DNA from: Thiosulfativibrio zosterae
GTDB taxonomy: Bacteria > Pseudomonadota > Gammaproteobacteria > Thiomicrospirales > Thiomicrospiraceae
Length of the DNA: 64,000 bases
Direction of reading: 5' to 3'
Assembly (NCBI RefSeq): GCF_011398155.1
Contig: NZ_AP021888.1
Location: 1,905,501 to 1,969,500, forward strand
The position numbers and the translations under genes were made by a program. Below the pieces are notes generated by a model. The model was not told the DNA's origin. It worked only from the letters and a program-made list of their open reading frames with translations, and made no database searches. Below, one piece after another: positions 15,557 through 18,847 of the stretch. Positions within the stretch are counted from its first letter, which is position 1. Each line of letters opens with the position of its first letter.

Positions 15557-16267
15557 TTATAAAGCTAAATTTTTGAGTCGATCGATATTTAACACATTCA
15601 CTTCTTTTTTCTTCCAAGACAAAATGTCATCCTTAGCCATTTTCGCCATGACCCTTGAAACCGTTTCAGGGGTCAAGTTTAAGAAAGATGCGACTTCTTT
15701 GTGCAGAATATTCAAACGAAATTGGGTATATTGATAGCCTCGAAGCTGATATCGCTCAACCATGGTCCACAAAAAGTAAGCGACTCGTTGGTCTGCACTC
15801 TTTTTGGTTAGCAATTCATTGTGAATTCTGCCATCAACAATATCACGACTCATGATGGCCAGAATGTGGGTGTATAAATTAGGAACCATTTTAGATAAAT
15901 CTTGTAATTGCTCCATCTCAATAGAACAAACACTGGTGACATCCTGGGCGACCGCATTAAATAGATGCACTTTATCTGCCAAGGCTTCTGAACCTACAAC
16001 ATCACCCGGCAAGTAGAAACCATGGATAATTTCTTCGTCGTTGTCATTAATAGAGTAGATTTTAACCATGCCAGCTTTGATGGCATAAAGAGATTTGAAT
16101 TTATCACCTGCTTTAAAGAGTATTTCTCCTCTATCAAGCGTAGGCATTTTATCGACCACTTGCTCTAAGCGTTCAACATCGGAACGGAAAAGCCCTTTGG
16201 GGAAACAAATTTTTTGTAAACCACACTGCAAACAGTTAGAACGATTGCCATTAAGATTTTCAGTCAT
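15557..16267 (-). CDS. fnr: FNR-type oxygen-sensing transcription regulator
   Basis: CRP/FNR family regulator of anaerobic metabolism, using an oxygen-labile [4Fe-4S] cluster. The cluster ligands are all present: Cys 12, 15 and 21 (CLQCGLQKIC, the exact C-x2-C-x5-C spacing of E. coli FNR) and Cys 114 in TSVCSIEME. The 93-residue distance from the third to the fourth Cys equals that in E. coli (29 to 122). The cyclic-nucleotide-like beta roll spans about 30-130. The helix-turn-helix at about 185-210 has LTPETVSRVMAK, carrying the E-x2-S-R that reads TTGAT half-sites. A perfect FNR box lies 46 bp upstream, so autoregulation is likely. Confidence 0.93.
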   Translation of the reverse strand: MTENLNGNRSNCLQCGLQKICFPKGLFRSDVERLEQVVDKMPTLDRGEILFKAGDKFKSLYAIKAGMVKIYSINDNDEEIIHGFYLPGDVVGSEALADKVHLFNAVAQDVTSVCSIEMEQLQDLSKMVPNLYTHILAIMSRDIVDGRIHNELLTKKSADQRVAYFLWTMVERYQLRGYQYTQFRLNILHKEVASFLNLTPETVSRVMAKMAKDDILSWKKKEVNVLNIDRLKNLAL

Positions 16268-16312: not shown

Positions 16313-16326
16313 TTGATTTAAATCAA
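16313..16326. promoter_or_regulatory. FNR box upstream of fnr
   Basis: TTGATTTAAATCAA is an exact match to the FNR consensus TTGAT-N4-ATCAA and is a perfect palindrome. It lies 46 bp before the fnr start. I cannot fix the transcription start, so activation or repression is not decided. The stop codon of a possible 45-residue ORF overlaps it. Confidence 0.85.
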
Positions 16327-16460
16327 GAATAGTTTGTTAAATAATTAATAAATTCTTTCTTTAGTGAATTAAGCCCAAATGAAATATCAAAATGCTTTTT
16401 ATCTTTTGATAAAAAATTTTTAATCATTTCCTGTAAAAAACCTTTCATTTTTTTTGTCAT
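16323..16460 (-). CDS. Possible small protein, 45 residues, upstream of fnr
   Basis: A short ORF in the same direction as fnr, starting MTKKMKGFLQEMIKNFLSKD and ending NYLTNYS. It is basic, Lys/Phe-rich and could form an amphipathic helix. The ribosome site AAGGAGG is strong but only 2 bp from the first ATG; a second ATG four codons later would be about 14 bp away. Neither spacing is ideal. The stop lies within the FNR box. The 519-bp space between fnr and the kinase gene is otherwise non-coding and very AT-rich, so the ORF could be chance. I recognise no family. Confidence 0.35.
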   Translation of the reverse strand: MTKKMKGFLQEMIKNFLSKDKKHFDISFGLNSLKKEFINYLTNYS

Positions 16461-16570
16461 GACCTCCTTATATTGAGTTGAAAAATCCAACTGCTTAATT
16501 TTTAATCAGCCTCACAGCTTATCCCTTTTTATGAGCTTTTTACCCAGCTACCACAAAAAAACTCACACAC

Positions 16571-16593
16571 TTATCCACAGCTAATGTGGATAC
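16571..16593. other. Pair of inverted DnaA-box-like sites
   Basis: TTATCCACA (16571-16579) is a perfect DnaA box. TGTGGATAC (16585-16593) is an inverted second box differing at one position (GTATCCACA). They lie in AT-rich DNA in the gap before the kinase gene. One perfect 9-mer is expected by chance about once per two windows of this size, so only the pairing is notable. Confidence 0.4.
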
Positions 16594-16777
16594 TTCACAG
16601 CCCTTAAAAAATCAATAATTTAGAAAAACAAACCCTGATAAACCATTTAAAATCAACAACTAACAATCTTTTTGTATAATGCAAGTTAACTAAAAAAACT
16701 AATATAGAGCTATCAACTGTCAAGCACTTTTTAAACTTTATTCACTTATGCAAACCACCGGACCCTCTTGCTTTTTA

Positions 16778-16786: not shown

Positions 16787-16828
16787 TTGCGCCATTTAAA
16801 ATTGTCTATTTTTAAGGGGTCTAATGCC

Positions 16829-18031
16829 ATGTCAAAAATATTGGGTATCGGAAATTGTGTGCTAGATATCATTCTAAGTATCAATGACTACCCCGCTGAA
16901 GACTCAGAGGTCAGGGCTAATAAAAAGACCCTGCAAGTGGGTGGAAATGTTGCCAACACGCTTTATGCCTTGAGCCAACTTAAGCATGAAGTTGCCATTT
17001 GTACGACTTTTGCAACCGATGATCAGGCAAAATGGATCACCAAAACCCTCCAAGAAAGAGGCATTAACACCGAATTTACCCAAAAGTTCATTCAAGGTGC
17101 AACTCCCACCTCCTACATCAACCTCAGTCAATCAAATGGAAGCCGCACAATTGTGCATTATCGCGACCTGCCAGAGGTTAGCTTTGATTTTTTTGCGAAA
17201 ATTGAAATTGAAGACTTTGATTGGTTGCATTTTGAGGGGCGTAACTTAGAACATCTACCAGGCATGCTTAACATAGCCAAAACTTTTTTAACACATCAGC
17301 CCATTTCTCTTGAAGTCGAAAAAGACCGAATTGGCATAGATGCCATCTTGACTCAAGCCAATGTGATTTTTTTCTCACACCATTTCGCCAAGCAACGAGG
17401 CTTTAAGGATGGCGCAGAATGTTTAAAAGCAATGCGACAAGCCGCTCCGCAAGCCCATTTAATTTGCACTTGGGGAGAAAATGGCGCTTGGTTTTCAAGT
17501 CCAAATCAAACGGTCAATCATCATCCCGCCCAGCAAATTAAAGTCATCGATAGTCTTGGGGCTGGTGATGTCTTTAATGCAGGTGTGATTAACGCGCTTG
17601 CCGCAGGAAAAGCTTTAGCTTATGCCGTTAAAGATGGCAGTGACTTGGCCGCTCGTAAATGCCAACAAATAGGGCTGGACAACTTACTTGCCCCCTTAGC
17701 GGTTAAAAAACCCATTGCTAACTTTAAACAACTCAGCAATGCCAAAACTCTAGTGGTTAAGGCACTGGGTCAAAAGCACGGGGTTGTACTCATTAAATAT
17801 GAAGATGAAGTCAGGGCCTATGTGAACAATTGCCCGCATCAGGATGTGCCCTTAACGGAAGCCTACAAAATTGATGTTAATCCGTTTGAAAAAACCATGA
17901 AATGTTCGGTACACGATGCTTTTTTTAAAATTGATGATGGAGAGTGTGTTGAAGGCCCTTGCTTGAACGATTACTTGCAAAGTTTAGAAGTGACTCTTGA
18001 GGAAAACGGTGATATTTATCTAAACGACTGA
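16829..18031 (+). CDS. PfkB-family (ketohexokinase-like) sugar kinase fused to a Rieske [2Fe-2S] domain
   Basis: A 400-residue fusion. I chose the ATG at 16829 (AAGGGGT upstream; protein starts MSKILGIGNCVLDI, the usual PfkB opening). Residues 1-290 are a PfkB carbohydrate kinase: QVGGNVANTLYALSQL (about 36-51) and the nucleotide/catalytic motif DSLGAGDVFNAG (241-252, catalytic Asp 247). The ending KCQQIGLDNL resembles ketohexokinase. Residues about 308-400 are a Rieske domain with ligands Cys 335 and His 337 (CPH) and Cys 359 and His 362 (CSVH), plus DAFFKIDDGECVEGPC. Both domains look intact. Substrate is unknown. The Rieske part may sense redox state or iron, or deliver electrons. The gene is monocistronic, ending at a strong terminator. 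Confidence 0.88.
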   Translation: MSKILGIGNCVLDIILSINDYPAEDSEVRANKKTLQVGGNVANTLYALSQLKHEVAICTTFATDDQAKWITKTLQERGINTEFTQKFIQGATPTSYINLSQSNGSRTIVHYRDLPEVSFDFFAKIEIEDFDWLHFEGRNLEHLPGMLNIAKTFLTHQPISLEVEKDRIGIDAILTQANVIFFSHHFAKQRGFKDGAECLKAMRQAAPQAHLICTWGENGAWFSSPNQTVNHHPAQQIKVIDSLGAGDVFNAGVINALAAGKALAYAVKDGSDLAARKCQQIGLDNLLAPLAVKKPIANFKQLSNAKTLVVKALGQKHGVVLIKYEDEVRAYVNNCPHQDVPLTEAYKIDVNPFEKTMKCSVHDAFFKIDDGECVEGPCLNDYLQSLEVTLEENGDIYLND

Positions 18032-18075
18032 AAAAAAAACGCCCAAACTCAATTGCATGAGTTTGGGCGGTTTTT
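18032..18075. terminator. Strong bidirectional terminator between the kinase-Rieske gene and rlmB
   Basis: An 11-bp perfect stem CGCCCAAACTC / GAGTTTGGGCG (18040-18050 and 18059-18069) with a loop of 8 bases. An A run precedes it and a T run follows it. Confidence 0.9.
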
Positions 18076-18115: not shown

Positions 18116-18847
18116 TTAGAGGTTCCTTTGACGAAATGCCTCATATAACGCAACGCCAGCCGCAACAGACACATTCAAACTTTCAACACTGCCTTGCATT
18201 GGAATCGCAGCTAGGTAATCACAAGTTTCTTTGGTCAGTTTACGCAAACCAGAACCTTCTGCCCCCATCACCAACCCAACAGCGCCTTTAAAGTCCATCT
18301 GATAAATGGTTTTGTCGGTTTCTCCGGCCAAGCCCACCATCCAAACACCCGCTTGCTGTAAATCTTTGAGTGTGCGCGTTAAATTATTCACTACGATTAA
18401 CTTAACGGTTTCTGCCGCACCCGACGCCACTTTACGAACGGTTGGGTTAATGCCTACCGAATTATGTTTAGGAATAATCACTGCCGTAACACCCACGGCA
18501 TCAGCAGTTCGCAAAATAGCGCCAAGGTTGTGTGGATCCTGCACTTCATCTAAAAACAAAAACAAAGGATTGCTGGATTTTTCTAAAATCTCTAACAAGT
18601 CTGCTTCTGTTAAATCGTCTTGTTTCGCAACTGTCGCGACAACACCTTGGTGCAACCCTTCAAATTTATTAAAGAAAGCTTTCGTCTCAAATGACAAGGT
18701 TACACCGAGTTTTTTAGCCTGGTCTTGTAATGCTTGCTGTCGTTTATTCATAGGCCCTTTTTCAAAGACCATTTGATAAATTAAATGCGGCGATTGTTTT
18801 AAAAACTTTTCAACCGCATGCAAGCCATAGATTTGCTCTTGCTTCAT
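18116..18847 (-). CDS. rlmB: 23S rRNA (guanosine-2251-2'-O)-methyltransferase
   Basis: SpoU-family (SPOUT) methyltransferase that 2'-O-methylates G2251 in the ribosomal P loop using S-adenosylmethionine. The 243 residues match E. coli RlmB. The N-terminal substrate-binding domain starts IYGLHAVEKFLK. The three SPOUT motifs are present: DEVQDPHNLGAILRTADAVG (about 103-122), VMGAEGSGLRKLT, and IPMQGSVESLNVSVAAGVALYE (read in two parts). The start codon overlaps the rnr stop by 4 bp (ATGA), the conserved rnr-rlmB order. Confidence 0.96.
   Translation of the reverse strand: MKQEQIYGLHAVEKFLKQSPHLIYQMVFEKGPMNKRQQALQDQAKKLGVTLSFETKAFFNKFEGLHQGVVATVAKQDDLTEADLLEILEKSSNPLFLFLDEVQDPHNLGAILRTADAVGVTAVIIPKHNSVGINPTVRKVASGAAETVKLIVVNNLTRTLKDLQQAGVWMVGLAGETDKTIYQMDFKGAVGLVMGAEGSGLRKLTKETCDYLAAIPMQGSVESLNVSVAAGVALYEAFRQRNL

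Follow-up and report, generated by a model that had tools for sequence, protein, structure and literature searches.

Background

The closest described system is ketohexokinase (KHK), the animal fructokinase, which shares with the kinase part of the protein described here the best match in sequence and in fold, the contacts to fructose and the catalytic aspartate, with 33–35% identity in fold alignments. The solved chains of KHK, however, end at the end of the kinase domain, whereas the protein described here continues directly into a Rieske domain. A second relative, YihV from E. coli, belongs to the same superfamily, has 24–26% identity to the kinase part in fold alignments and carries no Rieske domain. 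HldE is a further PfkB kinase with a second domain. Its additional part, however, is a nucleotidyltransferase that uses the same metabolite as the kinase, while the fusion protein has a redox cluster domain instead.

On the Rieske side, CarAc, the biphenyl dioxygenase ferredoxin and T4moC have the CxH...CxxH ligands in common with the fusion protein and give weak profile matches to it. The fusion Rieske domain differs from such Rieske-type ferredoxins in that the stretch between the two ligand pairs is 3–5 residues longer (in two alignments), in its GxCxxGPC motif and in being fused to or paired with a kinase.

In the open-licence literature, as far as its text was available, no description of an architecture joining a kinase (ketohexokinase, PfkB or sugar kinase) to a Rieske domain was found; the one paper found to contain both terms, ketohexokinase and Rieske, is an algal stress study (PMC10607294) that mentions each once. 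Both halves are thus known, while their combination and the wide pairing of their genes appear to be undescribed, although domain databases may list the architecture.

Results and discussion

A kinase and a Rieske domain in one continuous frame

The following features were found for the fusion gene in the window, that is the whole stretch of 64,000 nucleotides that was analysed.

16829..18031, + strand: fusion gene, ketohexokinase-like PfkB kinase plus Rieske [2Fe-2S] domain (open frame, Pfam, 36 of 36 family genomes)
16835..17683, + strand: PfkB/ketohexokinase-like kinase domain, residues 3–285 (Pfam, PDB, fold, KHK contacts)
17711..17971, + strand: Rieske domain, residues 295–381 (Pfam, ligands C335, H337, C359, H362)

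Translation of 16829–18031 (+) yields 400 residues in a single frame with one terminal stop. A Pfam scan of this protein returned PfkB with an E-value of 2.8e-32 (residues 3–285; 112.7 bits for PF00294 at a cut-off of 25.8) and Rieske with an E-value of 8.4e-12 (residues 295–381), both above the gathering cut-offs and separated by nine residues. The preliminary description had read the locus as a complete PfkB domain running without a stop into a complete Rieske domain, with DSLGAGD at residues 241–247, CPH at 335–337 and CSVH at 359–362, and all of these motifs were indeed found at these residues; both domains are complete, and the cluster ligands and the kinase active-site residues are conserved. 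The ATG start at 16829 is preceded by AAGGGG and same-family matches align from residue 1 of the fusion protein; with an alternative start codon, TTG at 16787, the protein would be 14 residues longer.

The fusion is present as one stop-free frame in 36 of 36 same-family genomes (the own genome and 35 others), among 57 genomes searched, and the 35 other proteins are 45–66% identical to that of the window. Of 16 named fusion loci, 13 belong to Hydrogenovibrio, Thiomicrorhabdus or Thiomicrospira, the rest being labelled Thiotrichales bacterium (two) and Piscirickettsiaceae bacterium (one). In one of the 16, L045 from a MAG, the frame is interrupted within the kinase part and the join between kinase and Rieske domain is intact. 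Because all 36 genomes keep the fusion open, chance as well as an artefact of sequencing, frame or assembly can be ruled out, and with them the frameshift or missed stop that had been considered at the outset. The kinase-Rieske fusion is real in one family of sulfur-oxidising bacteria.

The kinase part resembles ketohexokinase

The kinase part falls within the PfkB/ribokinase family by its PfkB score over the curated cut-off and by its GAGD motif with the catalytic aspartate. The ten best PDB sequence matches are all KHK (E-values from 5e-46 to 1e-44), and a fold comparison of the predicted model, which confirmed the kinase fold, placed KHK at all of ranks 1–21. After KHK, the best-matching solved structure is that of the sulfofructose kinase YihV, both by sequence (E-value 1.5e-18) and by fold. 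The 25 of 29 NCBIfam models that were listed all stayed under their own cut-offs, and no KHK model was among them.

According to the available text of PMC2651755, KHK-A binds fructose through hydrogen bonds with Asp15, Gly41, Asn42, Asn45 and Asp258, and Cys289 of human KHK packs against the adenine. In an alignment with KHK, the fructose contacts correspond to D13, G39, N40, N43 and D247 of the fusion protein and Cys289 to C278. All 20 family loci compared keep these five residues, and of 98 loci outside the family 98, 98, 98, 97 and 97, respectively, do so; at D247, the catalytic aspartate, the remaining outside locus has a gap. Position 278, the cysteine at the adenine end, is less constant (C in 15/20 family and 73/98 outside loci), and at the position of KHK Asp27 six of 20 family and seven of 98 outside loci have N. 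Judged from closest homology in sequence and fold and from the five fructose contacts, the kinase part is ketohexokinase-like; since these contacts are kept, fructose or a close ketose is its likely substrate. As a separate observation, GAGD is changed to AAGD in the kinases of L082, L083, L084 and L167, and A occupies the first position of this motif in 16 of 98 outside loci and one of 20 family loci.

The own genome contains three PfkB genes over the family cut-off, the fusion included. The second is a frame of 482 aa, which by its length we take to be HldE-like; PfkB frames of 476–486 aa are present in the genomes searched and presumably match HldE in length. The third lies about 2.5 kb from a weak match to PF00862 (sucrose synthesis). 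Sucrose metabolism as the source of fructose was considered and rejected: PF00862 matches occur in 13 of 39 genomes and, among 24 family genomes, in ten, all of them weak, while the fusion is found in all 24, and the match in the own genome lies close to the other PfkB gene.

The Rieske part probably retains its cluster

For the Rieske alignment, 38 sequences were used, namely the window and 37 of 56 linked loci. The ligands C335, H337, C359 and H362 are invariant in 38/38 of these sequences from fused and paired loci, as are two further cysteines, C373 and C378, within GxCxxGPC. Of all the linked loci, 54 of 56 show the CxH...CxxH pattern; it is lacking in L159, where a contig end truncates the frame, and in L160, whose frame is interrupted. 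With the ligands invariant and accompanied by the C..GPC cysteines, the Rieske part probably retains a [2Fe-2S] cluster. As GxCxxGPC also occurs in 20 of 20 stand-alone Rieske relatives read, the motif marks this Rieske family and not the fusion.

The solved relatives of the Rieske part comprise 13 weak matches (best E-value 4e-7), mostly dioxygenase and toluene-4-monooxygenase ferredoxins. A structure prediction of the fusion protein from a 16-sequence alignment reached a pLDDT of 77, with about 40–57 for residues 331–380; with the Rieske stretch poorly modelled, this model contains no interpretable domain interface.

Kinase and Rieske genes are paired outside the family

From a search of 369 genomes of the class, 98 kinase loci outside the family (E < 1e-40) were obtained. 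The same Rieske type is linked to the kinase at 36 of them, in 24 family codes besides that of the window. In five of these it is fused, namely in G180, in G395, G192 and G302 (which share one family code) and in G089, and in 31 it is encoded by a separate gene on the same strand. The separate Rieske domain is encoded downstream of the kinase in 30 of the 31 cases and upstream in one. In the 30 downstream cases the distance from the kinase stop to the Rieske domain ranges from -1 to 86 bases (median 21.5); in 29 the domain begins 11–86 bases past the stop, and the other, which is contig-cut, overlaps slightly. From genomes of thousands of genes, we infer that this adjacency is far beyond chance placement.

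The preliminary description had named separate kinase and Rieske genes in homologues as a ground against the fusion. Such separate genes do exist in other families, but they do not dissolve the fusion, whose frame is real here; with the genes separate and paired elsewhere and fused in this family, the functional link is rather strengthened. The same two-domain architecture, for which a search of protein databases had been proposed, was found in 36/36 family genomes and at 5/98 outside kinase loci. Among 398 genomes of the phylum, none of the matches listed from beyond the class extends over both domains; the best of them has an E-value of 1.1e-25. The fusion thus serves as a "Rosetta stone" for a gene pair that recurs elsewhere, and fusion and neighbouring genes in many related bacteria suggest that the kinase and the Rieske cluster work together.

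Both genes also occur alone, and the partnership is therefore not obligatory. The kinase is kept without the Rieske protein, since a linked Rieske domain is absent from the fetched stretch at 62 of the 98 outside loci (four with less than 500 bases of contig downstream) and since 43 of the 102 kinase-positive genomes of the class lack this Rieske type. Conversely, the Rieske type is present without the kinase in 62 of the 369 genomes and hence has other uses. In detail, 102 genomes contain the kinase (E < 1e-40), 121 the Rieske type (at least 97.7 bits), 59 both and 205 neither, a co-occurrence with a Fisher p of 6e-10, which is not corrected for relatedness; the Rieske gene of L160 (G193) is linked and yet falls under the 97.7-bit threshold. 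In 20 stand-alone Rieske loci no stable gene context was seen; a few of them share an ABC-transporter gene or a large cNMP-binding/rhodanese/FGE-sulfatase protein.

In one genome, G467, a different PfkB gene, presumably adenosine-kinase-like, is separated by 9 bases from a following Rieske gene of this type (L198:1321-2652). This second pairing was seen in G467 only, among 63 genomes searched; in the other 12 with that kinase the two genes lie on different contigs.

Origin of the fusion

The kinase tree comprised 111 rows, 13 of them family loci, with four contig-edge rows left out of the counts; a subset tree had 43 rows and the Rieske tree 65. On the kinase tree, parsimony requires at least 20 changes of linkage and at least three of fusion, the places of fusion being the family of the window, the group of G180 and f158, and G089. 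The Rieske tree needs four changes for the fusion. Support is poor for many branches of the kinase tree, and an AU test does not reject the grouping of all fused kinases in one clade (p 0.078).

Gene neighbourhood of the fusion and candidate signals

The surroundings of the fusion gene in the window contain the following features.

15557..16267, - strand: divergent fnr-like regulator, a neighbour (cNMP_binding and HTH_Crp_2, CxxCx5C near the N-terminus)
16653..16680, + strand: sigma-70-like promoter candidate for the fusion gene (TCAACA-16-TATAAT, 10/12)
18040..18069, unstranded: bidirectional intrinsic-terminator-like hairpin between the fusion gene and the SpoU-type methylase gene
18116-18847, - strand: convergent SpoU-type methylase gene, neighbour 3' of the fusion gene

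The promoter candidate is weak, as five such sites are found in the region and 7.5 in shuffles. The fnr-like gene is divergent from the fusion, as first described, and adjoins it in 15 of 19 family loci; the SpoU-type gene and the large gene following it are kept in 17 of 19. In L047-L050 the fusion is present and no fnr match occurs in the stretch read; in L050 this stretch is truncated 308 bases ahead of the fusion gene.

The preliminary description had pointed to this neighbour as an oxygen sensor, but a link between FNR and the fusion was not supported. The only exact TTGATNNNNATCAA site of the window (16313-16326) is found about 45 bases ahead of fnr, at a distance of about 500 bases from the kinase start; its position next to fnr suggests that fnr may be autoregulated through it. 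Within 650 bases upstream of the fusion, such a site (at most one mismatch) was found in one of 15 other family loci, where it is exact, so that the window and these 15 loci show no conserved FNR box at the fusion promoter. With the site not conserved and the neighbourhood not universal, FNR regulation is not supported as the reason for this gene arrangement.

Between fnr and the fusion, a 55-aa frame (16323-16490, -) has an internal ATG at about 16461 after GGAGGTC and could encode a small protein. The same intergenic region holds a lone perfect DnaA-box-like TTATCCACA (16571-16579); matches to it in the window are no more frequent than by chance (1 match, 3.2 expected).

Other neighbours of the kinase

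In 18 of the 98 outside loci, the kinase is preceded by the gene of a large protein that combines cNMP-binding, rhodanese and FGE-sulfatase domains (e.g. L081:332-5161, L164:568-4725 and L139:112-4896), with one or two genes in between in L164 and L165. These 18 loci were assigned by eye from the cluster label; Pfam was run on six, returning all three domains in L081, L139, L164 and L165 and FGE alone in the shorter frames of L097 and L138. Opposite-strand genes with FGE only (three scanned) share the label and were left out of the count. The large protein is commoner where a Rieske domain is linked (13/18 vs 23/80 loci; Fisher p 0.0009, not corrected for relatedness). It was not found in the own genome and five family genomes at an E-value of 1e-20. 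In L178 (1203-5810) its gene precedes a stand-alone Rieske gene by 68 bases, in a genome without the kinase at the threshold used.

A DAO-type FAD oxidoreductase occurs in eight loci, all eight without a linked Rieske domain. No ring-type oxygenase or ferredoxin reductase was found among the 20 neighbour-cluster representatives scanned, and neither of the two immediate neighbours of the fusion in the window is an oxygenase or reductase gene. A third partner common to all lineages was not found among the neighbours of the kinase loci. In addition, 18 outside loci have, upstream of the kinase and on its strand, a gene for a protein of some 102 aa (L096:4922-5227 and relatives) that contains two CxxC pairs and hydrophobic stretches and has no Pfam match.

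A kinase that might be gated by its cluster

We suggest, tentatively and at somewhat less than an even chance, that the protein is a ketohexokinase-type kinase with a built-in Rieske module, the state of the cluster most likely setting kinase activity. The kinase part would use ATP to phosphorylate fructose, or a ketose like it, at the C1 hydroxyl. In human KHK, Cys289 lies at the open, ATP end of the cleft; as its counterpart, residue 278, lies about 17 residues before the start of the Rieske domain, this domain is probably located by the nucleotide end of the kinase cleft. A cluster that is oxidised, reduced or lost could there admit ATP or shut it out. In other lineages, the Rieske protein encoded by the adjacent gene could act as a separate regulatory subunit. 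What speaks for such gating is that the two parts are fused or paired, that the ligands do not vary, that the linker is short and that the Rieske domain probably sits at the nucleotide end. In the more complete version, which is possible but more doubtful, the protein is a redox- or oxygen-gated ketohexokinase: the Rieske domain, elsewhere an electron carrier, would act as a sensor that switches a metabolic small-molecule kinase, within the same molecule in bacteria of the Thiomicrospira type and as a dedicated regulatory subunit in some two dozen other families of the class.

The Rieske domain may instead be an ordinary ferredoxin supplying an oxygenase or reductase of the same pathway, fused for co-expression or co-localisation only, with a kinase that is not regulated by the cluster. 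The ferredoxins that predominate among its 13 solved relatives (best E-value 4e-7) and the occurrence of the Rieske type without the kinase in 62/369 genomes argue for this, as does the large and possibly redox-active protein, which is found upstream in 18/98 outside loci and preferentially together with a linked Rieske domain. That protein, however, was not found in the six family genomes searched (E-value 1e-20), the FAD oxidoreductase of eight loci never accompanies a linked Rieske domain and the 20 scanned neighbour representatives include no ring-type oxygenase or ferredoxin reductase. To our knowledge, electron carriers fused to small-molecule kinases are also unusual, and we regard this reading as rather unlikely. 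Redox- or oxygen-gated phosphorylation of a ketose, although itself uncertain, is preferred over a co-localised ferredoxin.

It is unlikely, to a greater degree than for the ferredoxin, that the fusion is structural or neutral, abutting genes having merged by loss of a stop and the Rieske domain aiding stability or solubility or working independently. With 29 of 30 downstream Rieske domains beginning 11–86 bases past the kinase stop, few mutations would be needed for a fusion, and the kinase tree requires 20 or more changes of linkage; against this stand the invariant ligands, the retention of the fusion in 36 family genomes down to 45% identity and its three places of origin by parsimony, although a single origin keeps an AU p of 0.078. 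The substrate might also be another one, for example a ketose other than fructose or a sugar-like damage product, with the cluster reporting the oxidative conditions that produce it. YihV as the next-best solved relative and the asparagine found in some loci at the position of KHK Asp27 would fit this, as would the PfkB gene about 2.5 kb from the weak PF00862 match, which provides fructose from sucrose with a candidate kinase of its own. Hydrogenovibrio, moreover, consists of chemolithoautotrophs according to the available text of PMC11439405, and this points in the same direction. The five direct fructose contacts are kept, however, and KHK matches far better than YihV (5e-46 vs 1.5e-18). We regard a different substrate as rather unlikely.

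Conclusion

The kinase part is homologous to human ketohexokinase, for which many inhibitor complexes have been solved. Because the gene pair recurs, a control of the kinase by the cluster can be tested for in many lineages, and in the fused form both halves are available in one protein. If the cluster does control the kinase, the phosphorylation of a sugar would be tied directly to the redox state or to oxygen, which would be a new job for a Rieske domain.
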